64,000 bases of DNA. It comes from Buxus sempervirens. Lineage: Eukaryota; Streptophyta; Magnoliopsida; Buxales; Buxaceae. This document shows positions 16,320 through 50,227 of this stretch, piece after piece. Where the stretch lies: positions 6,758,001 through 6,822,000 of the forward strand of contig OX387184.1 of the NCBI GenBank assembly GCA_947561395.2, given 5' to 3'. The notes under the pieces were generated by a model. It was not told where the DNA came from. It searched no databases and saw nothing but the letters and a program-made list of their open reading frames with translations. The first letter of the stretch is position 1. Each line of letters opens with the position of its first letter. The translations under genes were made by a program, and so were the position numbers.

Positions 16320-16321
16320 GA

Positions 16322-18223: not shown

Positions 18224-18225
18224 TA

Positions 18226-25611: not shown

Positions 25612-25751
25612 TATCCGGATACTCAATCCGGCTACAAGTGCTCCTCCCCATATCCGGATAGTCATGCCGGATATGTGTGAGCCTTAGCGTATCCGGTACC
25701 ATGTACCGGATACCTTAAGGCCCTTTGTTATCCGGTCTGATGTACCGGATA
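25612..25751. promoter_or_regulatory. Array of four 23-bp dyads, period 39 bp, in the E promoter
   Basis: Units TATCCGG-N9-CCGGATA start at 25612, 25651, 25690 and 25729, exactly 39 bp apart; the first has CCGGCTA in its right half. The third is nearly a perfect inverted repeat (GTATCCGGTAC, 3-base loop, GTACCGGATAC). The array ends about 160 bp upstream of the TATA box. The copy in the 3' LTR is at 45780-45919. Confidence 0.88.
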
Positions 25752-25908
25752 CCTTAAGTTTGCTCAAAATTAGGGTTTTCCGAGAGCTTTTCACTTTTAC
25801 CATCATGTCCCTCATTAAATGAGGGGAAATCGCGGAAATAGCCTTAGGGTTTAGGTTGGAGGGGTTCTAGACATTAATTTGTGTCTACCAATGACCTTAG
25901 CCCTTGCC

Positions 25909-25917
25909 TATAAATAG
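25909..25917 (+). promoter_or_regulatory. TATA box of the E LTR
   Basis: TATAAATAG in CTTGCCTATAAATAGGAGCC. Expected start of transcription is near 25940, about 85 nt before the donor at 26024. Confidence 0.75.
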
Positions 25918-26020
25918 GAGCCTCCTCCTTGAGCAAATGGGACACAACTCTTGTTTTGAATTCTCGCAAAGAAGAACTCCAAGAGAAGAAGGAAACCGCT
26001 GTGGAATCGTCTCCAGAATT

Positions 26021-26029
26021 CAGGTAAGC
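26021..26029 (+). promoter_or_regulatory. Probable 5' splice site in the E leader
   Basis: TTCAG|GTAAGCC matches the donor consensus. The likely acceptor is CTCAG at 30469. Splicing would shorten the leader from about 4.6 kb to about 150 nt. Confidence 0.55.
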
Positions 26030-27797
26030 CTCAACTTTTCTTTTATTTTCTGTCTTTACATTCCTAGATCTAGATCTCTTCTTCTACCTTTCTGTAGTGT
26101 AAAGCCTTGTTTGTATGTGTGGAAATCCTTCCCCGGCTCAAAGTATCTCAAGACTCCCCTAGCCGTAAAACGTGAAGGCGGATCTAGGAGAAACGAGACT
26201 GGGGATTGACCCTAGTGCTAGAACCCATGTAGCATAAGGATTTTGATTGATTGTAAACCGTTCCATATTCAAAGTACCCTTGATTATCTTAAAGAGAACA
26301 GAGGGAAACGATAATGGAACGGAACCCTAGGCTATGCTAGAACCTATTTTGTTGAATATATGCATGTTGTATTGATCTTGCTTGGTTTTACACTCTTGCA
26401 CATACATATCACTATTTTGGCGGGATAGGCTCATATTTGGGGTTTATTGCATTTATTGTGATAAATCTCAAATAAATGGCCTAAATCAATTCTGGAGTGT
26501 TTTTAATTGCTTTTCAAAGGTTTTGGATTCATCTCACACGAATCACACACTTTTTATCAATTTTCGGATTTGATTTTCTTCAAAAATGGCTTAGCTTGAC
26601 AGCACCTGTACCCTTACTTCGGACATCCGTAACTTCATCATCCGGATGAATTTTGGGGTGATTCTAGAACCATGGGAAAGGTGTGGCTGTCTAGTTTATG
26701 TCCACCAAATTTCATGAATTTCTCTCTAGCCGATTTTTGACACCTCTCTGTCGAAGTTGAGTGGACAGTTCAGGTCCAAGTACAGAACTTGTCACTTTGA
26801 CGGACCGCCATGTGTTCGTTTTAAGTCTGATTCGAATGATTTTTGTTTCTGAGTACTCCTTTATGAGTCTATTTTCAAATCCAGTTGGTTTCATAATTTT
26901 TGGACTCTATTTGAATTATTGGTAGCCGATTTACTCAGAACTGCTCATTTGCATTTTTCTGGGTAAATCTGTGATCTTCGGGGCCTGTTCGGGTGACCAC
27001 CCAAGGCACGTCCGAAGGGATTTTTGTATGAGGCTAGTTTCTCTGGAAAGATGGCCATACAGACTTCAATCACACCAAATTTCACGGATTTCTATTTAGT
27101 GGATTTTTCTAGACAATTTTCCAAAGTTGCCCACTTACTACTTTTAAAAATCCCCAACAGCAACTTCAAAGGAGCATAACTCCTAGATTTTTCATCAGAA
27201 TGAAGTGAAATTTTGCATGAGGCTCTTATTTACCCTAATATTTCAAATGGATTTGGTTTGGTTCAATTCAGAATTGGATTTGAATGATTTTAAGGCAAAT
27301 GGCATACTTTTTACCAAACTTCCCGGATTTGATTTAACTTGGTTTTGATCAACTTGTGTTTTGATTTCCACCTCTTTAATGTTCCAGAAGTGATATTGAC
27401 ATAGGAGGAGATCTAAAATCCATTTGGATCTCCATGTGAATATATCATACACTTGTTCCTTTTTTAAGGCTTTTTTTCATGATTTTTAGCAAGCTTCTTA
27501 TTTTCTTTTTAGCATGAACATACACTTGGCAACCACTTCGTGTGGATGAATGGGGGTGCCTAACACCTTCCCCCGTTCATAATCTAATCCCCTTACCCAT
27601 CTCTGGACTTGATTTTCAAGTAGGGTTATTTTTATCCTAGAATTTGTCTTTTGGCTATTTTTGCCTACTTTTGAATTCTTTGGTGTCCATTCTCACCCCA
27701 AAATCATGAATGGTGGCGACTCTCCCAATTTTTGCGTTGAGCCCGCGTGTTGACGGAGGGACGATCACTCCGGTGATTTTTTCCCATGTCTCACAAC

Positions 27798-27815
27798 TGG
27801 CGACTCTGCTGGGGA
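27798..27815 (+). other. Primer-binding site of element E
   Basis: TGGCGACTCTGCTGGGGA, identical to that of A and B, starting 2 bp after the LTR. Family knowledge points to tRNA-Arg. Confidence 0.85.
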
Positions 27816-29159: not shown

Positions 29160-29299
29160 TAACCGGCAACTCAGGCCGGTTAATAACAACCCTGTTCATA
29201 TCCGGTACATATTTCCGGATAAAAAGGCATATGCGTGAATCCGGTTATGGTAACCGGATACAATAAGGCATATTATTATCCGGAATGTTATACCGGATA
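29160..29299. promoter_or_regulatory. Array of four 23-bp dyads in the E leader, period 39 bp
   Basis: Units start at 29160 (TAACCGG-N9-CCGGTTA, both arms changed together), 29199 (TATCCGG-N9-CCGGATA), 29238 (AATCCGG-N9-CCGGATA) and 29277 (TATCCGG-N9-CCGGATA). Spacing is exactly 39 bp. Same unit and geometry as the LTR array, with different spacers. Confidence 0.87.
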
Positions 29300-29590
29300 C
29301 GTTCAAAAATGCACAAATTGGCTTTTCAGCCCAAGTTTTCAGAATAAAATGCCTAAAACACTGTGGATCACCCTTAGGCACCCCGAAAAGAACATAAAAA
29401 ATGTTCCAAAAAAGAAAAAAAAGAAAAACAAACAAAATAAAATATTATTTCAGGATTTAACCTAAGTTTGAAAATCAAAGAGGAAACCAAGGTGTCATAT
29501 TTTTTGACACCAACTCAACTCAAACATGTGTCAATCAAACTCTGGAACTTGAAAACTGAGAAAATTCAGCAAATTTGAAGAAGAAAAAAA
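29300..29590 (+). other. E leader between the dyad array and the tandem array
   Basis: No gene or motif supported. AT-rich, with an A-rich run at 29401-29440. Confidence 0.5.
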
Positions 29591-30335
29591 AACCTTTGGT
29601 TGGTTATTTTTATCAATCAAATCAAAAAAAAAAAAATGAAAACCTTGGTTGGTTATTTTTATCAATCAAATCAAAAAAAAAATGAAAACCTTTGGTTGGT
29701 TATTTTTATCAATCAAATCAAAACATTTGTGGGATACTTGGATAGAATATTCCAAGACACCTTTGGTTGGTTATTTTTATCAATCAAATCAAAACATTTG
29801 TGGGATACTTGGATAGAATATTCCAAGACACCTTTGGTTGGTTATTTTTATCAATCAAATCAAAACATTTGTGGGATACTTGGATAGAATATTCCAAGAC
29901 ACCTTTGGTTGGTTATTTTTATCAATCAAATCAAAACATTTGTGGGATACTTGGAAGCCCTAGAATAGTCCAAGACACCTTTGGTTGGTTATTTTTATCA
30001 ATCAAATCAAAACATTTGTGGGATACTTGGATAGAGTAGTCCAAGACACCTTTGGTTGGTTATTTTTATCAATCAAATCAAAGCATTTGTGGGATACTTG
30101 GATAGAGTAGTCCAAGACACCTTTGGTTGGTTATTTTTATCAATCAAATCAAAACATTTGTGGGATACTTGGATAGAGTAGTCCAAGACACCTTTGGTTG
30201 GTTATTTTTATCAATCAAATCAAAACATTTGTGGGATACTTGGATAGAGTAGTCCAAGACACCTTTGGTTGGTTATTTTTATCAATCAAATAAAAAAAAT
30301 TTTGGGACCCTTGGAAGCCCTAGAATATTCCAACT
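29591..30335 (+). repeat. Tandem array of about 11 units before gag of E
   Basis: Each unit starts CCTTTGGTTGGTTATTTTTATC. The first three are shortened and end in A runs; later ones are about 70 bp and end in a small hairpin CTTGGA-N8-TCCAAG. The loop is TAGAATAT or TAGAGTAG; in two units it is the longer AGCCCTAGAATA type that also ends A's array. The array sits at the same place as A's array but has mostly different sequence. Confidence 0.88.
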
Positions 30336-30460
30336 CAAAACAAAAAAAAAAACAAAAAAACAAAAATTTTTTTTCTGGCTGGTGTTCACTTAACCTACTG
30401 GTTTACATATATAGGGGTGTGACTCAAGTTAAGTGGAAGCTAACATGTTCTATTCATTTT

Positions 30461-30471
30461 TTCCCTCAGGT
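30461..30471 (+). promoter_or_regulatory. Probable 3' splice site before gag of E
   Basis: ATTTTTTCCCTCAG|GTACATT, with a good pyrimidine tract. No ATG lies between this site and the gag ATG at 30536. Same position and CAG|GTAC form as in A and B. Confidence 0.5.
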
Positions 30472-30535
30472 ACATTCAACCCAGGTGCACTTATTTGCAG
30501 TCATTGCTCCCGTAACCAGATCCAAAGCAAGAGCC

Positions 30536-33500
30536 ATGAATACTGAAGAGAACCAAGCCCAAGCTACCGTCCCTGCTCAGGACTTTACTCAACTGCAGGA
30601 GCAAGTGGCCGGTCTGGCCAAAATGCTGGGGGACCTATTGGCGGCTCAGGCCCAACAGGCCCAAGCCCCGAACCAGGCATCTACTTCTCATCAGGCACCA
30701 CCACCTCAGGCCTACATTCCGCCTCCGGTTCAGCCCATGCCTGAGCCCATTTCTGAACCAGTCCCTGAACCCATTCTGATCAGGGAAAATATGGCGGAGT
30801 CTGAGAAAGAGCTGGAGAAAGAAAAGGCCCGAGATGAGATGGAGAAGAAAATGCTGCTGAGGATAAAGAGAATCCAGGCAGAGCTGAAAGAGGTGAAGGG
30901 GGGAGGCAGCCATGCAGGCACCACCTTCGAGGACCTGTGCATGTACCCGGACGTCTGTCTACCGGCTAAGTTCAGGTGCCCGGATTTTGACAAGTTTGAT
31001 GGCACGGGCTGCCCATTAAGCCATCTGAAACTATACTGCGGGGCCCTGTGCCAATTTGGCCGGGACGATGGAATACTGATCCAGCTCTTCCAGAGGAGTC
31101 TGACCGGGTCAGCCCTTCGGTGGTTCGCTACAGTGGACCATGGAAGGATTAGAAGGTGGAAGGACTTGGCCGATGCTTTCCTGGACCAGTACAAGTTCAA
31201 CTCTGAGATCGTGCCAGACCGGTACGACATGATGAGGATGACCAAGGGGAAGGATGAACCGGTGCGGCAATACGCCAAGAGGTGGAGAGAGGCCGCCTCC
31301 CAGGTCAGGCCACCTATGCAAGAGCCGGAGATGATCTCCACATTTATGGGCACACTAGGGCAGCCCTTTTACAACCATCTGGTGGGCCAGATCACCACCA
31401 ACTTTACAGCCCTGGTGCAGGTGGCTGACCGGATCGAAGAAGGGGTCAGGTCAGGAAGGCTGATAGACTACTCTACTTTGACTGGGCAGTCTGATTCCTC
31501 TGCCTCCATGGCCCAGAAGAAAGGGGCCGGGTTTAAAAAGACGGGGGCCCGAAAAGAAGGGGAGGTGAACCTGGTCCAGGCTCCTCCAGCCAAGAAGCCA
31601 CTGCACGTGAACATCTCGGCACCCCAACAGGCCCAGCAGGCCCAGCAGTCGTACCAGACCCCGATGAATGTCAACTTCTCTCCCTCTGTGCCAGCTAACA
31701 CAAGGAGAACTTTTTCTAAGGAGGAGCGGGATGCCTGGTTCGCAGCAAGGAAAAACCGAGTCTTCACTCCCCTACCCATATCTCTTTCCCAACTATTGCC
31801 AACCCTGCTAAAGGGTGAGTACTTGACTCTGAAAGAGCCCAACCCGAATGCCACCAGGGGGAGGAATTTTGACACATCGGTCACCTGTGATTTCCACATG
31901 GGTGCACCGGGGCATTCTACAGATACCTGCTGGGTATTGAAGCATGCGGTCCAGGACCTGTTGGACCAGAAGGCCTTAGTGTTCAACACTGCTGCACCCG
32001 CCCCGTCGGGGAATGATATTGGGCAGAATCCTCTGCCTTACCACAATGGGGCAGGCCCATCCAACTCCATCACTGCCATATCCACCACCAGAAGGGCCTT
32101 TGACCCATCACAGCTTATAGCACCAGTAGGGACCACTGTCCAAGTCCGTTTCTTCCAAGAAGAGGAAGAGGAGGAGATCAACATGGTCTCCCAAAAAAAT
32201 AATCTTGCTGCTGAGGACATAAGCTCCTCCTTGAACCGGGTCTCTTCTCTGATGGCCCAGATAAATACTGCAAGGCCTCCATTGGTCTTCAATTGCAGTC
32301 CATCCATTTGCTCCCCATCCAAGCCGTCTAAGGCTCCACTGGTCATCAATCTTGACCCCACCACTGCTTCCATCACTTCTTCTGTCCCCACAAAATCCAA
32401 ACTTCAACCCTTGGTTGTAAATGTGCAGCCAGCCCATACTATCCCTAAACCGGCCCATACATCCCGGTCCAAACTCCAGCCATTAGTGGTTAACATCCCT
32501 AAACTAGCCTATTCTGAGGCCGCTGTACCATGGAACTACAGCGAGGGAATCACGGCTACGGTTCCAGCGGTTAGAAACCTGAACCAGGAGGAGGTGAACC
32601 TCATGACGAGGTCGGGGAAATGTGCAGGGGGTGAAGAGAAAGAAAAAGAGACAGAAGTAGAGAAAGAAAAAAAAGAAAATGAAGAAAAAAGAAAACAGAA
32701 GGGAAAAAATAAAGTGGGAGAAGACACCCCCCAGGGTGCAGAAAATGAGGCATCGGACCTCATAAAAATCATAAAGAAAAGTGAATTTAATCTTGTGGAT
32801 CAGCTAAACAAGGTCCCGGCCCAGATTTCAATACTGGGCCTTTTGCTGAATTCCGAAAAGCATAGGGATGCATTGTTAAGGGTGCTACAGAGTGCACACG
32901 TATCCCAGACCATTGATCCAGACCAGCTTGGTAAAATGGTTGGTCAAATCTTGTCACATAATGTGATAAGTTTCTCAGAGGGTGAGATCAGCCCAAGTGG
33001 GTGTTATCATGTTGACCCTTTGCACATCACTGTGCTTTGTAAGGGCTGCATGGTTGCACGGGTTTTAATTGACAACGGGTCAGCGTTAAACGTTTGCCCG
33101 TTAATCACTTTTACCAAGCTGGGTCTGGACCAGTCAAGGATCAAAAGAAATGGGCGGATAGTGAGGGCTTTTGATAGCTCCAAGACCCACTCCCTAGGGG
33201 AGATTGAACTGCCGGTCACAATTGGGCCGAATATCTTTAACATCACATTTGAAGTGATGGATATACCCGCAGCCTTCAATCTACTCCTAGGAAGGCCGTG
33301 GATACATTCGGCTAGGGCAATACCATCCACGCTCCACCAGAGGGTGAAATATATAAGAGGGCAAAGGGTGATAACAGTCCTAGCTGAAAACTTGGTGCCG
33401 CCCATCGTGTCACCTGATGTACCCTTGATCAATGTGGACCTAACTGTCGACAAGATTGCATTCCACTCATTTCAATTTGAGGCGGTAAATTACATACCTG

Positions 33501-34240
33501 GGGGGTGTGAGAAAAAGAAAGAAAAGGGGACCACTGCAGAAAAGATGGTCAAGAAAGTGATGGAGAAATACCACTTTCACCCAGGGAAAGGCCTGGGGAT
33601 CAATCTGCAGGGGATGGTGGAGCCAATCACGGCTAAGAAACTGATCCCCAAGGTAGGGTTGGGCTTCAAGCCCAGAGGCTGGAGAAGAATGAAGCACGAA
33701 GAAGGGGAGAGCAGAAGCAAAGGAAAACTCCCTCATTTAAGGGAAAGTTTCCCTAAACCCGCTTATATAATCCAAATTTCTCCTCCTATGGACCAATCAA
33801 AACCTCCCTACTACAATGTCAACCCATTTCAAAAGCCTTCTGTTTCGGCCTTACAACCCTATAACCCATCTCCAATACTGGGAGCAGTGGATGGGCCTGG
33901 ACCACAGCCCGAGCAGCAGGTGGATTTTTCTGAAGATGTGGGTGCATTCTTCGCCATGACTGAGGGCGAAAAGACAGGGGTAGACATGGAACTACCATTC
34001 ATTGACTGGGCCGCAGTAAAGGTTCCAGACAAGGTCATTTCTGAACTGGGTCCCGTAGCAGAAAAGGGCAGTACCCACCCGGTGATGATGGCATCGGATG
34101 CTGGGCTTGAGGAGCAGGCTTTCCCTATTTCCCCTGCTCCCCAAAATTTTGTACTGAACAATTGGGAGGAAACTCCCCTTACCTTTGAAGCAGCGTTAGT
34201 TCGGCAAACTGACGCGGCTTCCAAAAAAAAACTCCAATAG
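30536..34240 (+). CDS. gag-pro: Gag-protease polyprotein with G-patch, element E
   Basis: Start chosen at the ATG at 30536 (MNTEENQAQ), after the probable acceptor; the frame itself opens at 30269. 1234 codons. The Q/P-rich N-terminus and a charged helix are followed by the gag core (about residues 130-310: CPDFDKFDGTGCPLSHLK, QLFQRSLTGSALRWF). A zinc-knuckle variant C-x2-H-x5-H-x4-C (CDFHMGAPGHSTDTC) follows at about residue 450. A long linker holds repeated PLVxN words and a K/E-rich stretch (about 700-740). The aspartic protease has active-site motif LIDNGSALNV (about residue 845), and a G-patch (PGKGLGINLQGM...GLGF) lies at about 1008-1050. It ends KKKLQ-TAG after an A9 run; pol is in the -1 frame. 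Confidence 0.9.
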   Translation: MNTEENQAQATVPAQDFTQLQEQVAGLAKMLGDLLAAQAQQAQAPNQASTSHQAPPPQAYIPPPVQPMPEPISEPVPEPILIRENMAESEKELEKEKARDEMEKKMLLRIKRIQAELKEVKGGGSHAGTTFEDLCMYPDVCLPAKFRCPDFDKFDGTGCPLSHLKLYCGALCQFGRDDGILIQLFQRSLTGSALRWFATVDHGRIRRWKDLADAFLDQYKFNSEIVPDRYDMMRMTKGKDEPVRQYAKRWREAASQVRPPMQEPEMISTFMGTLGQPFYNHLVGQITTNFTALVQVADRIEEGVRSGRLIDYSTLTGQSDSSASMAQKKGAGFKKTGARKEGEVNLVQAPPAKKPLHVNISAPQQAQQAQQSYQTPMNVNFSPSVPANTRRTFSKEERDAWFAARKNRVFTPLPISLSQLLPTLLKGEYLTLKEPNPNATRGRNFDTSVTCDFHMGAPGHSTDTCWVLKHAVQDLLDQKALVFNTAAPAPSGNDIGQNPLPYHNGAGPSNSITAISTTRRAFDPSQLIAPVGTTVQVRFFQEEEEEEINMVSQKNNLAAEDISSSLNRVSSLMAQINTARPPLVFNCSPSICSPSKPSKAPLVINLDPTTASITSSVPTKSKLQPLVVNVQPAHTIPKPAHTSRSKLQPLVVNIPKLAYSEAAVPWNYSEGITATVPAVRNLNQEEVNLMTRSGKCAGGEEKEKETEVEKEKKENEEKRKQKGKNKVGEDTPQGAENEASDLIKIIKKSEFNLVDQLNKVPAQISILGLLLNSEKHRDALLRVLQSAHVSQTIDPDQLGKMVGQILSHNVISFSEGEISPSGCYHVDPLHITVLCKGCMVARVLIDNGSALNVCPLITFTKLGLDQSRIKRNGRIVRAFDSSKTHSLGEIELPVTIGPNIFNITFEVMDIPAAFNLLLGRPWIHSARAIPSTLHQRVKYIRGQRVITVLAENLVPPIVSPDVPLINVDLTVDKIAFHSFQFEAVNYIPGGCEKKKEKGTTAEKMVKKVMEKYHFHPGKGLGINLQGMVEPITAKKLIPKVGLGFKPRGWRRMKHEEGESRSKGKLPHLRESFPKPAYIIQISPPMDQSKPPYYNVNPFQKPSVSALQPYNPSPILGAVDGPGPQPEQQVDFSEDVGAFFAMTEGEKTGVDMELPFIDWAAVKVPDKVISELGPVAEKGSTHPVMMASDAGLEEQAFPISPAPQNFVLNNWEETPLTFEAALVRQTDAASKKKLQ
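34224..34240 (+). other. Gag-pro/pol junction: A9 slippery run followed by a stop
   Basis: The run of nine A then CTCCAATAG includes A-AAA-AAC, a classic -1 frameshift heptamer, in the correct phase: slipping back one base enters the frame of the RT ORF. Element A stops its gag at the same aligned place (CTCCCATAA). Ogre elements are known to splice an intron between protease and RT, so splicing is the alternative. Confidence 0.5.
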
Positions 34241-37200
34241 TGGAATGCCATTTCCCTGAAGGTTCTAATGGGCCTTCGCCTTCAGGGGAATTATGTTTAG
34301 AAGGCCCACAAAAAACCCAAAAAGATTTTTCTATTTTTTCTAGAAAATTTAATTTTTTCAAAAAAGTCCAAACCACTTATGAGCCATATAATCAGACCGA
34401 ATTGGACCAGGTTGAATATGACTTCGACCTTGAGCTCGACTTTGATCTCATGGGGGTCGAAGAAGAGACCGAGGTCGAAGAAGAAGACGTTCCAAAAGAA
34501 ATTGAATACCAATTGGAACGTCATGAAAAGGGGGTCCAACCTAATATTGAGGAGACCATATCCATAAATCTTGGGACCAAAGATGACCCAAAAATTGTAA
34601 AAATCGGGTCATGCTTGTCTGATGTGCAGAAGAATGAAATGTCACAGTTCCTTGCAGATTACAAGGATGTGTTTGCTTGGTCATATCGGGACATGCCAGG
34701 GTTGGACACGGACATGGTGGTGCATAAGTTGCCAATTTTACCAGGGGTTAAGCCGATTAAGCAAAAGCTGAGAAGATTGAAACCTGAATGGACCTTAAAG
34801 GTCAAGGACGAAGTGGTCAAGCAGTTCCAAGCTGGATTTCTGGCAGTCTCTACGTACCCAGAGTGGCTCGCAAACATAGTGCCAGTACCAAAGAAGGACG
34901 GGAAGGTCCGAATGTGCGTGGATTATAGAGACTTAAACAGGGCAAGCCCAAAGGATGATTTTCCGCTTCCACACATCGACATTCTGGTCGATAATACTGC
35001 GGTACATAGCCTGTTCTCCTTCATGGATGGTTTCTCAGGATATAATCAGATCAAGATGGCTAAGGAGGATCAAGAGAAAACAGCATTCATCACGCCTTGG
35101 GGCACATTCCACTATACAGTCATGCCATTTGGGCTTAAAAACGCTGGGGCAACATACCAGCGGGCCATGACTGCACTATTTCATGACATGATCCATAAGG
35201 AGATGGAGGTCTACGTGGACGATATGATTGCCAAATCATGCAAAGAGGAGGACCACTTGATCAATCTGAAGAAAGTGTTTGATCGGCTCAGGAAATACAG
35301 TTTACGGCTTAACCCGGCTAAATGCGTCTTTCGGGCTACATCAGGGAAATTACTGGGGTTTATAGTGAGCCGGAGAGGAATTGAAATCGACCCGGCTAAA
35401 GCCAAGGCCATAATTGAAATGCCAGCACCCAGAACTGAGAAGGAGGTCAGGGGCTTTCTTGGAAGGATTCAATACATAAGCCGGTTCATAGCACAGCTCA
35501 CTGCTATCTGTGAACCAATTTTCAAACTTCTAAGGAAAGATAACCCTACGGTCTGGAATGAGGACTGCCAGCAGGCATTTGACACCATAAAGAGGTATTT
35601 GCTGAACCCACCGGTACTAGTGCCACCAACTCCAGGAAGACCGCTGATCCTGTACTTGTCAGTGTTGGAAACGTCGATGGGATGTGTCTTGGGGCAACAT
35701 GATGAGACTGGTAGAAAAGAAAGGGCAATTTACTATCTGAGTAAAAAATTCACAGAATATGAAGCTAAATACTCACCATTGGAAAAGACTTGCTGTGCTC
35801 TAGTGTGGGCCACTCAGAGGCTAAGGCATTATTTCCTTAGTCACTCCACACTATTGATATCCCGGATGGACCCGCTGAAGTATTTATTTGAGAAACCGGC
35901 ACTGACTGGCAGGACGGCAAAGTGACAACTACTATTGTCCGAGTTTGACCTCACATACATCACCCAGAAGGCGATCAAGGGTCAAGCCATAGCTGATCAC
36001 CTGGCTGCACATCCTCTGCCAGAATATCAACCCTTGAAGACCAACTTTCCCGATGAGGCTATTCTGTACACTGAAGAGGAGGACAGTGAGAGTTCTTGGC
36101 AGATGTTCTTCGATGGGGCCGCCAACATGAATGGGAACGGAATAGGGGCAGTCTTGGTTAAACCAGATGGTTCACACATCCCAATTGCAGTAAAGCTGAG
36201 ATTCCAGTGCACCAATAACATAGCAGAATATGAAGCATGCATAATTGGATTGCAAGCAGCCATGGATCATGGAGTAGAGGAACTTGACGTATATGGGGAT
36301 TCGAGTCTTATCATCTTCCAAACAACTGGTGAGTGGAAAACCAAGGATCACAAATTGATCCCCTATCACCAGTACTTGGAAGAAATAAGCACAAATTTCA
36401 CTCGAATTTCCTTCAACTATATGCCAAGGGCCAAGAATCAGTTTGCGGATGCTCTAGCAACCTTGGCTTCAATGGTCAGCATACCAGAAGGAGTAGACAT
36501 CAGACCGCTGGAAATTAAGGTCCGAGATGAACCGGCTTACTGTCTCGTTCTAGAGGGAGAGCCAGAAGAAGAAGCACCATGGTTTCAGGATATCAAGAAC
36601 TTCTTGAATAATCGGAGTTTGCCAGAAAATGCCACTGCGACTGAGAAGAGGACAATACAGAGATTGGCTGGTCAATTTCTGCTAAGTGGTGGACATGTGT
36701 ACAAGAGGTCACATAACGACATTCTGCTAAGATGTGTTGCCAAGGCTGAATCGGAAAGGCTGATTGAGACTGTACATGGAGGAGTCTGTGGGCCCCATAT
36801 GAGTGGGCACATGCTGGCTAAGAAGATCCTGAGGCTGGGATACTACTGGACGACCATGGAGCATGATTGCTGTATACATGTCAGGAGGTGCCATCAATGC
36901 CAGATATATGCAGATAACAAGCATGCACCCCCAGGCGAGCTGCACAACATGACATCACCCTGGCCCTTCTCTATGTGGGGCATAGATGTCATCGGCATGA
37001 TCTCCCCTAAGGCATCGAACGGACACAGATTCATCCTGGTGGCGATTGACTATTTCACTAAGTGGGTGGAAGCAGCCTCATATGCAAACATCACTAGCAA
37101 CCATGTTATTAAATTTTTGAAGCACAACATTATTTGTCGCTATGGACTGCCAAGTGCCATAGTATCAGACAATGCTTCAAATATTAAGAACAAGGACATG

Positions 37201-37827
37201 AAGAAAATGTGTGAGCAGTTTCAGATCACCCATCATAAGTCAGCTTCGTACAGGCCAAAGATGAATGGGGCAGTGGAAGCAGCAAACAAGAATATAAAGA
37301 AAATCATTCAGAAGATGGTAGTGAGTTACAAGGATTGGCATGAAATGCTGCCACTTGCTCTACATGCCTACAGAACCTCGATCCGGACTTCAACTGGGGC
37401 AACCCCATACTCCCTAGTCTATGGGATGGAAGCAGTCTTGCCCATGGAAGTAGAGATCCCATCACTCCGAGTGCTCATGGAAGCAGAACTAGAAGAAGCC
37501 GAATGGGTCCAGTCCAGACATGATCAACTTAACCTGATAGAAGAAAAGAGGTTGAAAGCACTTTGCCATGGACAGTTGTACCAGAAGAGAATGGCCCGGG
37601 CTTACAATAAGAAAGTGAGACCCAGAACTTTCCAAGAAGGAAACTTAGTGCTAAAGAAAATTCTACCATTTTTGGAGGATCCTCGTGGTAAGTTCAAGCC
37701 CAATTGGGAAGGCCCATATGTCGTCAAGAAAGTACTGTCAGGGGGTGCACTCATCTTAGCAGAAATGGATGGGTCAGATTTTCCTGAGCCCATTAACTCT
37801 GATGCGGTAAAAAGGTATTTTCCTTGA
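34241..37827 (+). pseudogene. pol: Pol of element E: RT, RNase H, second RNase H, integrase; one in-frame TGA
   Basis: The frame is open from 34240 to 35925 and from 35926 to 37827 in the same phase. RT has CVDYRDLNRASPKDDFPLP, MPFGLKNAGATYQR and the catalytic YVDD near 35212-35223. The first RNase H follows (YLSKKFTEYEAKYSPLEK). At 35923-35925 TGA replaces the Trp codon that B has (GRTAK-stop against GRIAKWQ). The second, archaeal-like RNase H starts at MFFDGAANMNGNGIGAV (about 36100) with a typical D...E...D pattern. Integrase shows an H-H-C-C finger (H..GHMLAKKI...CHQC) and the D, D, E residues in GIDVIG, VSDNAS and GAVEAANK, ending at 37827. Without readthrough, second RNase H and integrase would not be made. 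Confidence 0.88.
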
Positions 37828-38779: not shown

Positions 38780-39690
38780 CTAGTCTCCTAGCCGCTCCTC
38801 AAGCTCCCGAATCCGAGCTGCCTGAGCTGCAATGACTCCTGAAGCCCCCTCTGCAGCGGGATCACTCAGGAAGGAAATGACCTCATCTGAAAGGGCCTGC
38901 TTAATCCGCATACCCCTAAGGCTGGCCAAAGTATCCTGGTACTTCTGCCGGATCATACGGACCTCGAAGCGACGAGCCTGCCTCTGCTCCTCCAGCTTCT
39001 CTTCCACGGCAATACGGCGTGAGACCTGCTCCTCAAGCTGCCTCTCCAGATAAGCTCTGTATCCTGAGCTCCTGGGCCTCCCGTACCCATATCTGCTGAA
39101 GCCGCTTATGAGAAGCCCGCTCAGACTCTAGAATGTCCTCATAGATGGGAGCCAAGACTACAGGAGGATCTTCGGGTACTGGGGCCTGAGTCTGTATCTG
39201 TTCCTTGATCCAGAAGAGATAATCCTTCACATGGGTTTCCGAGAAGACGGGACCATGCATAAAGCGGACATAAGACCACTCCTTCATCAACCAGGCATTC
39301 AGCTTCATAGAAAGAGGCCCAAGACGATCCTCATATCCACATGGGATGATAATCCCCTGGGTCGCTCGGAACTGACGAAGGACCCGCAGAGGAAGATAAA
39401 GCACTGCATGTCTCAGGCCAGCCAGAATCAAAAAGTTGCGGTCTCGGAAGCTAATCACTGTCTCCGCATTAGGCTGGTAAGTACCAGGCCATCTCACCTG
39501 GTCATCCTGAAGCGAGCCCAAGAAAGTGAACCAGCCCTGTTTGCCCCCTGGAATATCGGGGCACCCCCTGTTGCTCATCAAGAGAGGGACTTTCAGACTC
39601 GGGAAGAAGTGTCGATTGATCTCTTCAATCTGGCTCAAATGATCAAGTAGCCAAAGCTGCAAAGGAAGAGAGAGGTGTCAGCACATTGTA

Positions 39691-39735
<45 letters not shown>

Positions 39736-40494
39736 CAAAAAAGGCAAAAAGAAAGCCAAAAAGAAAGAAAAAAAAAACTTGTATACCTGCAGGATCTGGG
39801 CACATGCTAAGAAGCGTTTTGACTTCCTGTTGTAGCAGTCAGTCAAGGCCTGATATATCCCAGCTAAAATCATAGGGGCCAACCTCTCCCGCTCCCTGAC
39901 CTGGCATATCACAGAAATCAAGGCCAAGTCCACCTCGTCATCCTCCCGTGGGAAAAGCAACTGGTTGACCACTATTAGGGTCAACGCATTGAATCGGGCC
40001 TCCTTATCTTCTCCCCTCAAAAGCTTCTCAGTCAAAAAAGCCTTAGATAGGGTCAAAAGGGTGTCAGAATCCCCCAAGTCCTTCTTCCCTATGCCCAAAA
40101 AAGTAGAAGCTTCCTTCTTATAACTGGGCCTAAGAGGTGGATTCACCACCTTCTCATCAAACCTCAGGCCCAGGATGGTTTCCACCTCTTCAATGGTTGG
40201 GGTCATCTCATGGGTCCCAAAACGGAACAAGTTGAGATCAGGAACCCAATGACCAATCATGGCCTCTATAATCTCCCACTTGAAGGGAACCTTGGGAATG
40301 AGCAGGGTATGACCTAGATTGGTAGTACCCCATCTCCTCTCCTCATCTAGAGTCATAGAGTTAACCCACCTGGTGTAAAAGGAATCCACAGGGTTGTACC
40401 TAGTGAGATTTGGGGGTTTTGATCTAAAAGGCTGTTTTGCAGGGGAGGCAGTGTGGACAGACAATAATGGGGCAGAAGATGATTCGGATTCCAT
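38780..40494 (-). CDS. Antisense DUF7745-like ORF1 homologue of element E, two exons, C-terminal frameshift
   Basis: Exon 1 is 40494-39787 (236 codons) and exon 2 starts at 39656. The 130-bp intron has donor CTGCAG|GTATAC and acceptor CTTTGCAG|CTTTGG, both phase 0, and contains a long T tract. The start MESESSSAP is chosen because a TATA box (CTATAAATG, 40604-40612) would place transcription near 40575, after the upstream ATG. The protein is colinear with B ORF1: LFRFGTHEMTPTIEEVE, ILGLRF, RPSYKKEASTFLG, LRVLRQF. B reads straight through at the intron position. Exon 2 stops at 39033 after SLSGEAA. A one-base shift near 39057 would continue into the coiled coil RAYLERQLEEQ to 38780, so the C-terminus is probably frameshifted. 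Function unknown. Confidence 0.8.
39657..39786 (-). other. Intron of the antisense ORF1-like gene
   Basis: 130 bp, GT...AG on the minus strand, phase 0. It contains about 45 consecutive T on that strand (39690-39734 as A), so the length may vary or be misassembled. Junctions fall exactly where the B homologue is uninterrupted (CAPLLH against CAQILQ, then IWLQDHL against LWLLDHL). Confidence 0.8.
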
Positions 40495-40603
40495 TGGATT
40501 TGACGGGAGCAAGCTAGAACTAAAGAGGAGGAAGAAAAAGGCGAAAAAGGGGGTTTCTAAACTCAAAAACTCGTAAAAAATGCCCAAATCCCGAGACTGG
40601 TTG

Positions 40604-40612
40604 CATTTATAG
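40604..40612 (-). promoter_or_regulatory. TATA box of the antisense ORF1-like gene
   Basis: CTATAAATG on the minus strand, about 110 bp before the chosen ATG and directly next to the dyad array at 40625-40763. Confidence 0.6.
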
Positions 40613-40624
40613 CATCTTTTAACA

Positions 40625-40763
40625 TATCCGGTAACTCAGACCGGATACAAAGGCTTTGGTAATATCCGGATAAGTATACCGGATACGAAGGATCCCATGA
40701 ATATCCGGTATGACATACCGGATACAAAGACCAATCAATGTATCCGGTATGTCAGAGCGGATA
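40625..40763. promoter_or_regulatory. Array of four 23-bp dyads upstream of the antisense ORF1-like gene
   Basis: TATCCGG-N9-CCGGATA units start at 40625, 40663, 40702 and 40741 (spacing 38, 39, 39). The third is a near-perfect inverted repeat (TATCCGGTAT, GAC, ATACCGGATA). The last has GCGGATA. Same unit and period as in the LTR and leader, now 13 bp from an antisense TATA box. Confidence 0.87.
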
Positions 40764-40970: not shown

Positions 40971-43652
40971 CTACTCCTGTGCAGGATCATCCCCATGTCC
41001 TCGGCCGCGTCCACCTCTACGGCGTCTCCCCCAAAGGGCTCGGCCTCTAGAGTATGCAAGAATCCGCTCGGCCGCATGGCGAGGATGCCGACCTACCACC
41101 TGCTGAAGATGATACTCCAAGCAATAATCCTCGAGATCTGGGGGAGGAGCAGGAGTAGAATCGGGGGAAGAAGCCTCGGGCTCAGCAGCAACCGGCCCAA
41201 CTGGGCCCTCATCCAAAGCATCCTCTGCTCCCGCAGCTCCAGAAGGCCCAGCATCAGCAGCAGAGGGGCCAGGATCAGAAGTAGCTGAGTCCACAGAAAA
41301 GAGAAAAATCAGAAGATTCAGATATAAGGAAGAATAAAAGAAGAGGATGAAAAGAAGATCATACCAGGAATGTCTGCAGAAGGAGCAGGAGGATCCGGCT
41401 CGTCAGGATCAGCAGCTGGGACATCCTCGGGATCAGAGGCCCGAGCAGGAGATGGGTCAGGAATCAGGAAATCATGCTCAAAGAAGGCATCCTGATCATG
41501 GACCGGGCCCTGCACAAGTCAAACAAGCATATCAGAATAGCAGAAACAGAAAATAATGAAAGAAATGAACATATGAGAAGGCCAGATACCTGTCTAGCCT
41601 GGAGCTCAGCAACCAAGGCCTCCAGCTCCCTGATCCGGGCATCCCGCTGAGCCACGACCGCATCGTGCTCCGCGATCATATCATCGATCGCAGCCCGCTG
41701 GCTCTCGAACCGGTCCCGAATGGAGTTCAGCTCGTGTACCTGCCAGCAAGAACGGAAGCATGGTCAAAAAGGCAGAAGGAAGGAAAAGAGGATAAAAATG
41801 GGAAGAATACAAGACTTACCGTGTCCTCATGGATCCGGATACGGATCCCGCCAATCTCAGTCACCCCAGCACGAGTGGGTCGATCCATCAAGCATCCAAT
41901 AGACACCCGCTGGAACCACTCGTCATAATCTCCAGCTACTGTAAGCCCCTCCGCATCCAAGAAGTGATCGAACTGATCAACATCAAAGCCCGGGAGGAGT
42001 GTGTCGGGACCCACAGCAGGAGGAGGGACGGGGATGCGAAGTGCGCCAGTGTGCTGGTAGTACAGGCGCTCTCCCAAGTACATCACCCTACCAAGCCTCC
42101 CAAGGAAGCACTGGTAAGACTGACGTCGGAGATCTCGCTCAAAAGCATCCTGTACTGCCATCTCACGGGCGACTCCGACATCCACGTCATCTGGACGGGA
42201 TAGAATGAGCTGCAAAGAAGCGAAGTGGTCAGATACAGGAAAGAAAATAAAAGAAAAAAAGATAGAGGACTTACATCAGATCGGCGTGCACGGTCTAAGT
42301 GCACCCGAGCGGTACGAGGCTGGCTCCTATCGGCATCTCGAACCTGGGCCGACCATCGCAGGGCCACAGGGAAATCCGCAACCTCAGGAACCGGGGAGGG
42401 GCGGAAGAAGGTCATATAGGTGTACATGAACACCTAGCAAAAGAATAATCAGTCAGAAAAGGATAAAAGCCTAAAGAATTAAGCCAGACAGATAAATGCA
42501 ATACCTGTAGAATCTGCCAGAAGAACCGGCTGCTAACTCCATCACCTCTCGGAGATGCTAAGCCTCGAACCGCTCGGCACAGCCCGGCCAAGATGGTCCC
42601 ATAGATCAGCCGACCCCATGCTAGCTGGCGGGTCTGATGGAAATCTCTCAAGGCGTCCAAAAAGAGCGGACTGACACCAGTCGTATCCTCCGGGAAGAAG
42701 CAGCTCCCCAACATCAGCAGAAATACATGTCGGAAGATCGGCGCAAAGGCTGCATCCTCCACAGAAACGGTCTCGTGCCTCCTCTCAAAATGGCGAGCCA
42801 GACTCTCCCGCAACCAACTAATGGAGAGCCGGCCACTCCGCCCATCCCAAGCAGTAGGAGGCAGGGCCTGATATCCCAGGAGAAGTCCCATATCCTCCGC
42901 AGAAGGCCGCTCCAAGACGATGGTCCGCCCCGTCAGAGGAATGCCAGTAATCATCACAAAATCGGAGGGGCGGATCCCCAGCTCCACGTCCGGCAGGTGG
43001 AACGACTGTGTCTCTGGAAAGTATCTCTCCATCATGGCAAAGATGAGTGGACGGTCGGCTCTGAATGATGGAATGCTGAGGAAGTGATCCAGATGACACC
43101 TCCCAAACTCCCGCCTGAGTGCTGGAGAAAGCGACTGAGCTAGATCACTAAATCTGCCCCAGCTACCTCGTAAGTGGGAGGAATAATAGGGAAGCGGCAC
43201 ATCTGCCCGGATGCACATAGAGGGGTGGCTATCCAAGCCATGGAGGAGCTCTGTATCATGCACAGAAGCCCTCAGCTCCTCAGAGACCCCTGCCAGAGCT
43301 ACAGCAACCCCCTCTGGAGCCATATCTCTGGCTCTGCCTCGGCCTCTACCACGGCCTCTCTCGCCCTCAGGGGCCTGATCCTGAACTCTGCCTCTGCCTC
43401 TGCCTCGACCTCGAGCCGGTGCAACCACGGGCTAAAATCCAAGGGCAGTGTGAAGATTGTGTGGGAAAGGAGAATAGAAGAAAGAAAAGAAAGGAAAATT
43501 TTTTGAAAGCCTACCTCAGCAGAGCTCTCTCGAGAGCCGCCTAATGGCTCGGACAGGGTGGCACTAGAACTAGTCTCAATCCGAGCTCGAGAAGAAGAAG
43601 GCCGGTCGGCCGGGTCAACCTCCTCACGCACACGAGAGCGACTCCTAGCCAT
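40971..43652 (-). CDS. Antisense plant-mobile-domain (PMD) protein of element E, 7 coding exons, 740 aa
   Basis: Exons on the minus strand: 43652-43515, 43431-42505, 42433-42275, 42209-41820, 41739-41590, 41509-41365, 41284-40971 (138, 927, 159, 390, 150, 145 and 314 bp; total 2223). All six introns are GT...AG and 65-83 bp long; five are phase 0 and the last is phase 1. An RG-rich N-terminus (RGRGRGRVQ) leads into a PMD/aminotransferase-like domain (about residues 150-350) with SFHLPDVELGIRPSDF, ITGIPLTGR, SWLRESLARHFERR, AFAPIFRHVFLLMLGSCFF and RLIYGTILAGLCRA. Exon 5 encodes a coiled coil (RIRELEALVAELQARQ). The tail is acidic/proline-rich, then RRRRGGRGRG. Host PMD proteins (MAIN, MAIL1) are nuclear and linked to silencing and gene expression. 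Nothing looks broken. Confidence 0.85.
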
Positions 43653-44675
43653 CTACAACAGGGAAGTGTCCTATGAAATTCAGTCCTACTTTACTTTGAA
43701 TCTCAATTCAGTTCAAATTTATCAGGAATACTACTTTGTTTTGATCTATATTCATGGCATATTTGTTAGGAGTAATGCTTTACTTTTGGGTCCAGATTCA
43801 ATTCATATTTAATAGGACTTTGGTCTCTTCAAAGCTATTGTCAAGAATTCTAACTTAACCTGGTTGTCTGTCACAGTTCAAGTGTTTCTGGGAAGATTTG
43901 AGACTAATGCAGAAGTTGTAATGAGTGGTTCTCCAGATACGAGTTGGTCTCAGGAATCATCAAGGTGGCAAAAACACAGGGAAATATAATAGTTCGGTAC
44001 AATCAGAGCATTACTACAATTTGAATGAAGGAAATGTCAATTGCAAGAAAAGAAATACCATATGATCAAGAATTGGCTATCAAGTCCGAAAAGAGCCAAT
44101 GGCATCAATTCAGAATAACATCAAGGTGATCATGCAAAGAGAAGTCAAGAGCAAGTCATGGGCAGACAGAGTATCAATTTATTCAGAACAGATGAAAATA
44201 AAAAAAAAAATCAATCAATGAAGGCATCAAAATCAGGTTGTCAAGCTTCTTCTAATCAAGAGGAACCATGGGAATTCAGCCAAGACAAATATGGGGAAAT
44301 GCAAAATCATGCCATTCAGTGGGAAAGGCAATCCCAATCAGTGCAAGTAAAAGTCATGACATCACAAAAAAATTTGAAGCATTGTAATCCAGCATGGTTT
44401 GTCCAAAACAACCAAGGCAATGGCAAGATTGGATTCATTCAGAAATTCAAACTCAAACTTGGCAGAAATTCAGAAATTCATGCAATTGACAGAAATCCAG
44501 ACTTGGCAGATGCAGGCAATTGGGGAAATGGACAATTCTCCACAATTAAGAGAAATCCTAGCATGGCAAAATTTCTTGGATGTAAGCACATTACAAAGAA
44601 AAAATAGCACATGGCATTGAAATTCGTCCAAATAAGCATGAATGGATTACCCAGAACAATTCCAATCTCACTAAC
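43653..44675 (-). other. Probable 5' UTR intron of the antisense PMD gene
   Basis: On the minus strand CCCAG|GTTAGTGAG (donor at 44675) and TTCCCTGTTGTAG|ATG (acceptor ending at 43653, directly before the start codon) bound 1023 bp. An open frame on the plus strand (44158-44607) has no recognisable domain and is probably spurious. Confidence 0.5.
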
Positions 44676-45000
44676 CTGGGCAAGCAGTGGAGAAGCAAGT
44701 GTCTGATTACAAATGGGACTCAAGGGACCAGTAGCCGGAGCAAGACCTCCAATGTCAGGCTGAGAAATCACAAGAGAATGGGAAAAATCGAGCTAGGGCT
44801 CGACTGCGGCTGTCAAAGAGCAATCACTGAAGTCGCCGGAGTTGCAGGTCGTCGCCGGCAGCAATAGGTATCGCCGGAGTTGCTGGAGATCGCCGGAGAA
44901 GCAGGACGAGTCGTCGGGTGAAGAAGAAGAAGGAGATGGCCGGTCTGGGTAATCGGAGCAAGAAGAAAAGGAATGAAAGGTCGCGGTCGCGCGCGACTTA
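44676..45000 (-). other. Probable 5' UTR exon and promoter side of the antisense PMD gene
   Basis: On the minus strand about 325 nt contain no ATG and are rich in CTCCGGCGA and TTCTTC words, as in plant 5' UTRs. It ends at a good donor. The likely start of transcription is near the dyad pair at 45014-45075; I see no clear TATA box. Confidence 0.45.
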
Positions 45001-45013
45001 AGTAAACATGCGG

Positions 45014-45075
45014 GATCCGGATACTCAGGCCGGATACCCGCAGACCCTGTATTATCCGATTACACTTACCGGATA
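45014..45075. promoter_or_regulatory. Two 23-bp dyads upstream of the antisense PMD gene
   Basis: Units at 45014 (GATCCGG-N9-CCGGATA) and 45053 (TATCCGA-N9-CCGGATA), 39 bp apart, matching the unit and spacing of the other arrays in E. Confidence 0.8.
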
Positions 45076-45675
45076 CTAAAGAAAAAAAGAAAAAAAATAG
45101 AAAAAAGCAGAAAATAATAGAAAAAAATAGAGGAAAAAACAGGAAAGAATAGAAAAAAAAGGGAAATGAAAAGAAAAAAAAAAAAAAAAAGAAGAAAAGG
45201 AAATGAAAAAAAAAAAGGAAAAAAGAAAGAAAAAAAAAAAAAAAGAAGAAAAGAAAAAAAAGAGAAGGAAAAGGAGGGAGCAAACTTGTGCTATAATTCT
45301 TACTATTTTCTCAAAATCCTATTTTTGCCTTGAAATCCACCTCACAGCCACGAGAGCTCTGTGGAATTCGGGACAACTTTGGGAAATGTGCCTGGTCAAA
45401 AGGATGATATCCACTCAATTTTCAACTTGGTTTGATAAAAAATCAGTTTTTCAAAAATCCTATTTTTGGGCTTAAAATCCACTTCACAGCCACAAAGGGC
45501 TCAGTGGAATTTAAGAACTCTTGGAGAGATGCCCCCTTAAAGTGAGGGCTTTTTGGCAAATCTCCACTCAAAAATGGTTTTCTACAGAAATTGAATTAAA
45601 CCGAGCAAATCATGCTCAAGGGAATGCAATTTGGGCTTGTCTACTCTTTGCAGCTCACTGCTTCGCAGCTCCCGC
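45076..45675. other. 3' untranslated region of E with an A/G-rich tract
   Basis: 45076-45275 is almost pure A/G (long A runs with G or GG breaks). After it come two copies of a CAC(C)TCACAGCCACGAGAGCTC-like segment (about 45335 and 45480). The same words occur near the 3' end of A (25400 and 48185), so this is shared lineage sequence. No gene. Confidence 0.55.
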
Positions 45676-45684
45676 AAAGAGGGG
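45676..45684 (+). other. Polypurine tract of element E
   Basis: AAAGAGGGG just before the 3' LTR at 45689; A has AAAGAGGGGG in the same place. Confidence 0.8.
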
Positions 45685-45688
45685 CAGT

Positions 45689-47963
45689 TGTAGACACCCC
45701 AAATTGCACAAACAATCATAAAAAATCATTATCTCCTGGAAAGCCAGCACAGAATTTGAAGAAAATATACTTTTACCTGTATCCGGATACTCAATCCGGC
45801 TACAAGTGCTCCTCCCCATATCCGGATAGTCATGCCGGATATGTGTGAGCCTTAGCGTATCCGGTACCATGTACCGGATACCTTAAGGCCCTTTGTTATC
45901 CGGTCTGATGTACCGGATACCTTAAGTTTGCTCAAAATTAGGGTTTTCCGAGAGCTTTTCACTTTTACCATCATGTCCCTCATTAAATGAGGGGAAATCG
46001 CGGAAATAGCCTTAGGGTTTAGGTTGGAGGGGTTCTAGACATTAATTTGTGTCTACCAATGACCTTAGCCCTTGCCTATAAATAGGAGCCTCCTCCTTGA
46101 GCAAATGGGACACAACTCTTGTTTTGAATTCTCGCAAAGAAGAACTCCAAGAGAAGAAGGAAACCGCTGTGGAATCGTCTCCAGAATTCAGGTAAGCCTC
46201 AACTTTTCTTTTATTTTCTGTCTTTACATTCCTAGATCTAGATCTCTTCTTCTACCTTTCTGTAGTGTAAAGCCTTGTTTGTATGTGTGGAAATCCTTCC
46301 CCGGCTCAAAGTATCTCAAGACTCCCCTAGCCGTAAAACGTGAAGGCGGATCTAGGAGAAACGAGACTGGGGATTGACCCTAGTGCTAGAACCCATGTAG
46401 CATAAGGATTTTGATTGATTGTAAACCGTTCCATATTCAAAGTACCCTTGATTATCTTAAAGAGAACAGAGGGAAACGATAATGGAACGGAACCCTAGGC
46501 TATGCTAGAACCTATTTTGTTGAATATATGCATGTTGTATTGATCTTGCTTGGTTTTACACTCTTGCACATACATATCACTATTTTGGCGGGATAGGCTC
46601 ATATTTGGGGTTTATTGCATTTATTGTGATAAATCTCAAATAAATGGCCTAAATCAATTCTGGAGTGTTTTTAATTGCTTTTCAAAGGTTTTGGATTCAT
46701 CTCACACGAATCACACACTTTTTATCAATTTTCGGATTTGATTTTCTTCAAAAATGGCTTAGCTTGACAGCACCTGTACCCTTACTTCGGACGTCCGTAA
46801 CTTCATCATCCGGATGAATTTTGGGGTGATTCTAGAACCATGGGAAAGGTGTGGCTGTCTAGTTTATGTCCACCAAATTTCATGAATTTCTCTCTAGCCG
46901 ATTTTTGACACCTCTCTGTCGAAGTTGAGTGGACAGTTCAGGTCCAAGTACAGAACTTGTCACTTTGACGGACCGCCATGTGTTCGTTTTAAGTCTGATT
47001 CGAATGATTTTTGTTTCTGAGTACTCCTTTATGAGTCTATTTTCAAATCCAGTTGGTTTCATAATTTTTGGACTCTATTTGAATTATTGGTAGCCGATTT
47101 ACTCAGAACTGCTCATTTGCATTTTTCTGGGTAAATCTGTGATCTTCGGGGCCTGTTCGGGTGACCACCCAAGGCACGTCCGAAGGGATTTTTGTATGAG
47201 GCTAGTTTCTCTGGAAAGATGGCCATACAGACTTCAATCACACCAAATTTCACGGATTTCTATGTAGTGGATTTTTCTAGACAATTTTCCAAAGTTGCCC
47301 ACTTACTACTTTTAAAAATCCCCAACAGCAACTTCAAAGGAGCATAACTCCTAGATTTTTCATCAGAATGAAGTGAAATTTTGCATGCGGCTCTTATTTA
47401 CCCTAATATTTCAAATGGATTTGGTTTGGTTCAATTCAGAATTGGATTTGAATGATTTTAAGGCAAATGGCATACTTTTTACCAAACTTCCCGGATTTGA
47501 TTTAACTTGGTTTTGATCAACTTGTGTTTTGATTTCCACCTCTTTAATGTTCCAGAAGTGATATTGACATAGGAGGAGATCTAAAATCCATTTGGATCTC
47601 CATGTGAATATATCATACACTTGTTCCTTTTTTAAGGCTTTTTTTCATGATTTTTAGCAAGCTTCTTATTTTCTTTTTAGCATGAACATACACTTGGCAA
47701 CCACTTCGTGTGGATGAATGGGGGTGCCTAACACCTTCCCCCGTTCATAATCTAATCCCCTTACCCATCTCTGGACTTGATTTTCAAGTAGGGTTTTTTT
47801 TATCCTAGAATTTGTCTTTTGGCTATTTTTGCCTACTTTTGAATTCTTTGGTGTCCATTCTCACCCCAAAATCATGAATGGTGGCGACTCTCCCAATTTT
47901 TGCGTTGAGCCCGCGTGTTGACGGAGGGACGATCACTCCGGTGATTTTTTCCCATGTCTCACA
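45689..47963 (+). repeat. 3' LTR of element E
   Basis: 2275 bp, the same length as the 5' LTR, with about four differences noticed by eye. Followed by target duplication CAAAG (47964-47968). Confidence 0.93.
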
Positions 47964-50222: not shown

Positions 50223-50227
50223 GGTAC

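Follow-up and report, generated by a model that had tools for sequence, protein, structure and literature searches.

Dyad arrays, probably read by a dimeric regulator, at the LTR and an antisense gene of an Ogre-type retrotransposon in Buxus sempervirens

The window analysed here, a stretch of 64,000 nucleotides of Buxus sempervirens DNA (assembly GCA_947561395.2, contig OX387184.1, positions 6,758,001 to 6,822,000 of the forward strand), is a nest of plant long terminal repeat (LTR) retrotransposons, one of which, called E below, carries arrays of a 23-bp dyad, TATCCGG-N9-CCGGATA, in its LTRs, in its leader and upstream of two antisense genes. The dyad feature is real and constrained, and the arrays are probably regulatory. 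Judging from their geometry and conservation, they are probably bound as DNA by a dimeric regulator, which would recognise a pair of inverted half-sites. The same scheme, with a different dyad, is found in two relatives of E in the window, O and X.

Dyad arrays in element E

With up to 3 mismatches allowed, the dyad was matched 19 times in the window, while 100 shuffled sequences gave 0.98 matches on average, 5 at most, and none reached 19. An earlier note on this DNA had placed 18 units in E; all of them were recovered, and they account for 18 of the 19 matches. The remaining match, at 38932 (2 mismatches), is isolated and was therefore set aside. Since the arrays of the two LTRs duplicate each other, the 18 units reduce to 14 distinct ones.

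25521-47963: element E, with LTRs at 25521-27795 (+) and 45689-47963, flanked on both sides by CAAAG
25612-25751: LTR array, dyads at 25612, 25651, 25690 and 25729; copy in the 3' LTR at 45780-45919
29160-29299: leader array, dyads at 29160, 29199, 29238 and 29277
40625-40763: array upstream of the antisense DUF7745 gene, dyads at 40625, 40663, 40702 and 40741
45014-45075: array upstream of the antisense plant mobile domain (PMD) gene, dyads at 45014 and 45053

The nearly constant 39-bp spacing reported in the earlier note was found again, with steps of 39, 39 and 39 bp in the LTR, 39, 39 and 39 bp in the leader, 38, 39 and 39 bp at the DUF7745 gene and 39 bp at the PMD gene (39 bp in 9 of 10 distinct steps). 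A dyad scan that was blind to the motif (7-bp arms, at most 1 mismatch, loops of 3-14) ranked the E family first and the family of O and X lower. All 14 distinct units lie outside the presumed coding stretches, which take up about 53% of E when one LTR is counted and introns are included. The two LTRs of E differ at 4 positions over 2275 bp, none of them in the array. Other candidate sites were rejected: the TCCGG sites at 4580-5290 appear by eye to be part of an inverted-repeat sequence resembling a miniature inverted-repeat transposable element (MITE), and GATCCGGATA at 41832 lies inside a predicted PMD exon.

Conservation of half-sites and spacers

The half-sites of the 14 distinct units are 93-94% identical, both within and between arrays, a figure inflated by the choice of units according to their match to the consensus, whereas the outer 16-bp spacers, whose low figures are unaffected by this choice, are only 30-34% identical (random expectation 25.5%). 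The inner 9-bp spacers are 34-37% identical, or 50% for units of the same index in different arrays, against the same random expectation. Half-sites are thus far better kept than spacers in the comparison that the earlier note had proposed. Its statement that the spacers differ holds for their low overall identity but not for unit 1, which has the inner-spacer core ACTCA in all four arrays (mean spacer identity 0.69, permutation p 0.002). Because the unit 1 spacers all carry this core, the E arrays probably descend from one array, the filler of which has since mostly been lost; one simple tandem duplication that included the spacers, an origin also raised in the earlier note, does not explain them, although some common ancestry is evident.

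The changes within the arms were examined as pairs. Of the 98 arm pairs of E, 6 deviate: 5 are one-sided and unpaired, and 1, in unit 29160, is two-sided and compensated. In the 8 units of the O arrays described below (5' LTR and leader), 10 of 56 arm pairs deviate; Watson-Crick pairing is restored in none, and 4 are one-sided changes to G-U. These changes, mostly uncompensated, point to half-sites in the DNA more than to stems in the RNA.

A second dyad in the relatives O and X

The dyad TACGGGC-N7-GCCCGTA was matched 16 times in the window with up to 3 mismatches, where 0.35 matches were expected. Twelve of these matches fall in O (both LTRs and the leader), 3 in X array 1 (two of which overlap), and 1, at 25167, is isolated.

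6423-8240 and 48405-50222: LTRs of element O, flanked by GGTAC
50864 onward: element X, which extends beyond the end of the window
6525-6643: O LTR array, TACGGGC-N7-GCCCGTA on a 14-bp half-site grid; 3' LTR copy at 48507-48625
9474-9592: O leader array, same dyad as in the O LTR
51426-51628: X LTR array 1, O-type dyad, grid interrupted
52440-52542: X LTR array 2, degenerate half-sites (up to 2 mismatches), mostly in 13-14 bp steps

In both O arrays the direction of the half-sites alternates every 14 bp, and on this grid the half-sites are 86% and the spacers 36% identical, figures in which a single spacer, taken once in each direction, serves both half-sites of a dyad. The unit spacing in O and X is 28 bp, unlike the 39 bp of E. 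X array 2 contains no full dyad within 3 mismatches. The O LTRs differ at 5 positions, 1 of them within a half-site of the array. The arrays begin 91 bp (E) and 102 bp (O) into the LTR, with different dyads, and the distance from array start to TATA box is 297 bp in E and 305 bp in O, where O distances are counted from the first half-site at 6525 (the first full O dyad follows 14 bp later, at 6539). The X arrays lie elsewhere in the LTR, 562 and 1576 bp in. The ratio of observed to expected CpG is 0.78-1.78 in the 8 distinct arrays of the three elements, against 0.50 for the whole of E; their flanks are mostly low, with the exceptions of one side of the PMD array (1.16) and one side of X array 1 (1.01).

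The type of dyad does not follow gag similarity: O is closer to E (68% amino-acid identity over 391 aligned positions) than to X (47% over 234), and yet shares its dyad with X. At the settings used, the alignment of O and X LTR DNA recovered the arrays only. The 13-mer AACTCAGGCCGGT occurs in both E leader unit 1 and X array 2 and is the sole 13-mer common to their arrays; since ten 13-mer matches link E (one LTR) and the whole X LTR, this sharing is only suggestive. In O, tblastn found no match (E-value up to 1e-4) to the antisense proteins, reverse transcriptase (RT) or integrase of E, while short DNA matches between O and E remain, one of them to the start of the second open reading frame (ORF).

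Position of the arrays relative to promoters

The sequence TATAAAT[AG] occurs 10 times on both strands of the window, and 6 of these occurrences lie within 310 bp downstream of an array, namely in both LTRs of E, both LTRs of O, the LTR of X and at the antisense DUF7745 gene. Counted by arrays, 4 of the 8 distinct ones have such a box at most 310 bp downstream, which random placement equalled in 10 of 20000 trials, with the limit of 310 bp chosen after the distances had been seen.

25909-25916 (+): TATAAATA downstream of the E LTR array; also at 46077
6830-6837 (+): TATAAATA downstream of the O LTR array; also at 48812
51643: TATAAATA of the X LTR
40604-40611 (-): TATAAATG of the antisense DUF7745 gene

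The tightest pairs are those of the antisense DUF7745 gene, where array and box are 13 bp apart, and of X array 1, which ends 14 bp before the box. The claim of the earlier note that the unit stands at every apparent promoter of E therefore applies to the LTR and DUF7745 arrays, each with a TATA box downstream; the leader array shows no sign of a promoter and the PMD array has no TATA box. The PMD array was tied to its gene only through a predicted exon of the 5' untranslated region, with the donor near 44675 and the acceptor directly before the ATG at 43652, so that the promoter would lie near the array. In X, there is no array between the primer site and the DUF7745 ORF. In E, where the DUF7745 gene is antisense, it is preceded by an array and a TATA box; in X, where it is sense and lies downstream of the LTR promoter, it lacks an array of its own, a difference that a promoter element would produce.

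Genes of E and X and the classification of E

30269-34240 (+): E gag-protease ORF, Retrotrans_gag and G-patch
34240-37827 (+): E pol, RT with RNase H followed by second RNase H with integrase, split over two ORFs of the same frame
39033-40494 (-): E antisense DUF7745/PMD-family gene, ATG at 40494; one predicted intron, donor near 39786, acceptor near 39657
40971-43652 (-): E antisense PMD gene, several predicted exons, PMD domain in 42412-43428, RGRG-rich
54561-56042 (+): X DUF7745 ORF, sense, upstream of gag

The G-patch domain of the gag-protease ORF spans 33542-33664 (residues 1092-1132), and an in-frame stop at 35923-35925 divides pol between RNase H and the second RNase H. The exon borders and the end of the PMD gene were read by eye; the gene apparently ends near 40971, so that the DUF7745 array sits between the two antisense genes. 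The DUF7745 gene has moved and been flipped between the relatives, being sense before gag in X and antisense after pol in E.

The domains of E pol follow in the order RVT_1, RT_RNaseH, RVT_3, Integrase_H2C2, rve. According to the relevant parts of PMC6317226, a second (archaeal-type) RNase H between RNase H and integrase is a trait of Ogre and Retand, and 57% of Ogre elements carry an extra ORF with a plant mobile domain. Having both traits, E fits the Ogre branch of Tat within Ty3/gypsy. Ogre elements have a region of about 274 bp on average between the gag-pro and RT-INT ORFs; in E the ORFs as called mechanically, whose true starts and splicing may differ, abut at 34240. Ten window proteins, which do not include every exon or ORF, were scanned: PF10536 and/or PF24924 were found in the E antisense ORFs and the X sense ORF, and neither Transposase_28 nor, at E-values up to 1, DUF1985 was matched. 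Homologue searches returned one distant match (P0001) among 5732 candidates for X DUF7745 and none for E PMD in a scored set of candidates capped at 8000, and a sequence search of the PDB with both proteins gave none at E-values up to 1. Scans of viral contigs found no relatives of E pol (one ORF as query) and no exact patterns of one and a half units of the E or O/X dyad.

Nesting and other repeats of the window

E is inserted within O, as is a further element, S.

12416-22128: element S, LTR of 3904 bp, 100% identical pair, flanked by AGGGA, sitting in the gag region of O

The LTR ends of S are unlike those of E, O and X. The LTR of X has the same start, TGTAGACACC, as those of E and O, and X has the same primer-site-like TGGCGACTCTGCTGGGGA near 53293. 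Inverted pieces at 5876-6325 and 50223-50863 flank O and are 79-86% similar to its LTR, from which O seems to have been inserted into an older relative. A MITE-like sequence at 4560-5290 was recognised by eye by its inverted ends around GTTTGGATAGCC...GGCTATCCAAAC. The leader of O contains a minisatellite (9740-11004) with units of roughly 40-48 bp and an imperfect palindrome, CTGAAAGCCTTTGAATTTCAG, which may or may not be functional; that of E contains another (29688-30315), with a 71-bp unit and 96% matches. Rfam and tRNA scans of the window gave no matches.

Proposed mechanism and alternative explanations

In the mechanism that we propose, dimers would bind side by side on an array and form an upstream activating (or anti-silencing) block, which would open the LTR promoter and those of both antisense genes to RNA polymerase, while a further block would stand in the 5' leader. 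The regulator might be encoded by the element itself, as its own PMD-family product, DUF7745 or PMD, and to this source, taken together with the dimeric sites, we give slightly less than an even chance. In that case the element would activate its genome RNA and its regulator at the same time, and each type of dyad would have a separate circle of users. O would then have to receive the factor in trans, for which an element like X, which combines the dyad type of O with a DUF7745 gene, would be suited. In the structure model of X DUF7745 only 41 residues (about 440-480) exceed a predicted local distance difference test (pLDDT) score of 70; they belong to a long C-terminal helix (419-486) that is compatible with dimerisation.

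Several points weigh against this proposal. The conserved half-sites, variable spacers and fixed geometry fit the dimeric DNA-binding protein suggested in the earlier note, but protein binding and activation at the dyads are what we infer, the whole analysis rests on one 64-kb window, and the inflation of half-site identity was mentioned above. No TATAAAT[AG] stands within 310 bp of the PMD array, of X array 2 or of either leader array (E and O). The model of X DUF7745 has a mean pLDDT of 39.4 and neither shows nor excludes a DNA-binding fold. Both 5' arrays are retained in O, although it lacks tblastn matches to the antisense proteins of E, so that the element carrying the arrays is not necessarily the source of the factor; likewise, Sirevirus families without the extra gene still keep their LTR repeats, according to the passages used of PMC2829016. 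That two superfamilies have the CGG-CCG core in common is explained just as readily by a host factor. Finally, the promoter motif DOWN, linked to host PMD proteins (see below), is not enriched among genes down in pp7l, as given in the part of PMC7156037 used here.

A recruited host transcription factor, dimeric and reading CGG/CCG, with families using different paralogues or spacings, is possible and nearly as likely as an element-encoded one. LOB-domain factors prefer TCCGGA-like sites; among the literature records listed (10 of 45), none supported a link to LOB-domain factors. The retention of arrays by the non-autonomous O agrees with a host factor, as do the core CGG-CCG common to 12 of 13 Sirevirus repeats in Table 3 of PMC2829016, the Citrus Sirevirus unit AATCCGGCTWRCCGGATT, which is very near the E arms, and the suggestion of stress-related host factors by Bousios et al. 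in the sections of that paper used here. The difference in dyad and spacing between E and O, despite 68% gag identity and a nearly identical LTR address, is more easily understood if reader and site co-evolve. Nor is any host factor known to us that would suit the 23-bp/39-bp geometry as well as that of 21 bp/28 bp, which counts against this explanation.

An action of the arrays as hairpins of RNA or extruded DNA, in packaging, dimerisation or as targets of small RNAs, as discussed for Sirevirus palindromes, is improbable. The array RNAs do fold well beyond shuffled sequences in 8 of 9 stretches (z -3.6 to -8.8), unit 29160 of E has its compensated arm change, and small-RNA hotspots over Sirevirus palindromes are mentioned in papers citing Bousios 2016 (PMC5311732, PMC10760457, in the passages concerned). 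However, repeated palindromes fold strongly anyway, hairpins have no need for fixed spacing, the PMD array folds at chance (z -1.0), and an array upstream of a promoter is absent from the RNA of that promoter; with the arm changes mostly uncompensated, conservation of RNA stems was rejected as the main constraint. The least probable explanation by far is that of neutral minisatellites spread by slippage and gene conversion like other leader tandem repeats. Family-specific tandem repeats are frequent in Retand relatives (PMC11963269, in the part used here) and several occur in the window, and the ACTCA core of unit 1 indicates that whole arrays were probably copied. Neutral copies would, however, keep or lose half-sites and spacers alike, contrary to the identities of 93% and 30-34% (outer spacers) in E, and would not put different dyads at nearly the same LTR address in E and O; we rejected this reading on the comparison of half-sites with spacers.

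Comparison with known systems

The closest parallel to the proposed dimeric regulator sites is provided by the repeated motif (RM) boxes of Sireviruses. As described in the relevant passages of Bousios et al. 2010 (PMC2829016), these are family-specific palindromes in many copies, nearly all with a CGG-CCG core, located in CpG-rich stretches both ahead of the TATA box in the LTR and before the extra gene; the spacing of the units is not described in those passages. CGG-CCG palindromes in at least 8 copies are present here as well (CGG-N9-CCG 18 times in E; CGGGC-N7-GCCCG with 15 array matches in O and X, LTR copies included), and they precede the TATA box in the LTRs of E, O and X and at the E DUF7745 gene, but not at the PMD array or at X DUF7745. 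In contrast, Sireviruses are Ty1/copia elements with an ENV-like extra gene, whereas E, O and X are of the Ty3/gypsy Tat/Ogre type, the extra genes of E, DUF7745 and PMD, run antisense, and E and O have an additional array in the leader. The pol of E has RT ahead of integrase and contains a second RNase H. Being Ty3/gypsy, E is no member of the Sirevirus RM system, although by analogy it appears to work like it. The earlier note knew of no such system in Tat/Ogre elements, and no description of dyad arrays there was found among the openly licensed papers listed, judged by title and abstract; the kind itself is nevertheless known from Sireviruses.

A looser parallel than Sirevirus is given by the anti-silencing VANC proteins, the model case of a transposon protein whose short targets recur, and their VANDAL transposons, in which short motifs are likewise repeated in the non-coding parts of plant transposons and differ between related families (PMC5735166 and PMC10398659, in the passages used). 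VANDALs are not LTR retrotransposons, VANC carries DUF1985, and the VANC21 motifs are arrayed in one orientation, unlike the dyads of E, O and X (PMC5735166, same restriction); binding and loss of methylation were shown there, while the present dyads are known from sequence alone. Among the Tat elements, Retand and Grande carry genes in antisense orientation in the interval from pol to the 3' LTR, the products of which are predicted to bind DNA, and the Grande antisense gene is said to have its own promoter; these genes differ in encoding Transposase_28, and no dyad array appears in the passages of Vicient 2025 (PMC11963269) on which this comparison draws.

We know of no role for the extra PMD-family genes of Ogre elements. 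The host PMD-family proteins MAIN and MAIL1 are tied to a short promoter motif and to the expression of the genes that carry it: 25 of 26 genes down in all mutants examined have the DOWN motif in the promoter (PMC7156037, PMC9899485, as far as the parts used go). Neither dyad resembles this motif, which reads CATGCAGTTT in the promoter of MORC1, and it is unproven that MAIN/MAIL1 bind the motif directly (PMC7156037). As a speculation that we think unlikely to hold in full, the Ogre-type PMD/DUF7745 proteins would act as dimeric activators or anti-silencers with sequence specificity, each group of elements having a dyad code of its own at LTR, leader and antisense promoters; the code would be swappable, so that a non-autonomous element such as O could join the circuit of another, and the host MAIN/MAIL1-DOWN circuit would be a domesticated descendant.

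A family-specific dyad before the LTR promoter and the DUF7745 gene provides a concrete target sequence for DNA affinity purification sequencing (DAP-seq) and reporter tests, and might help to find what DNA the host PMD proteins recognise. New in comparison with the Sirevirus palindromes are the Ogre setting, the promoter of an antisense gene, the two types of dyad that do not follow gag similarity and the nearly identical LTR address in E and O. While arrays of this kind are already known from the CGG-CCG palindromes of Sireviruses, the present case would extend the palindrome-array promoter design from Ty1/copia to Ty3/gypsy.

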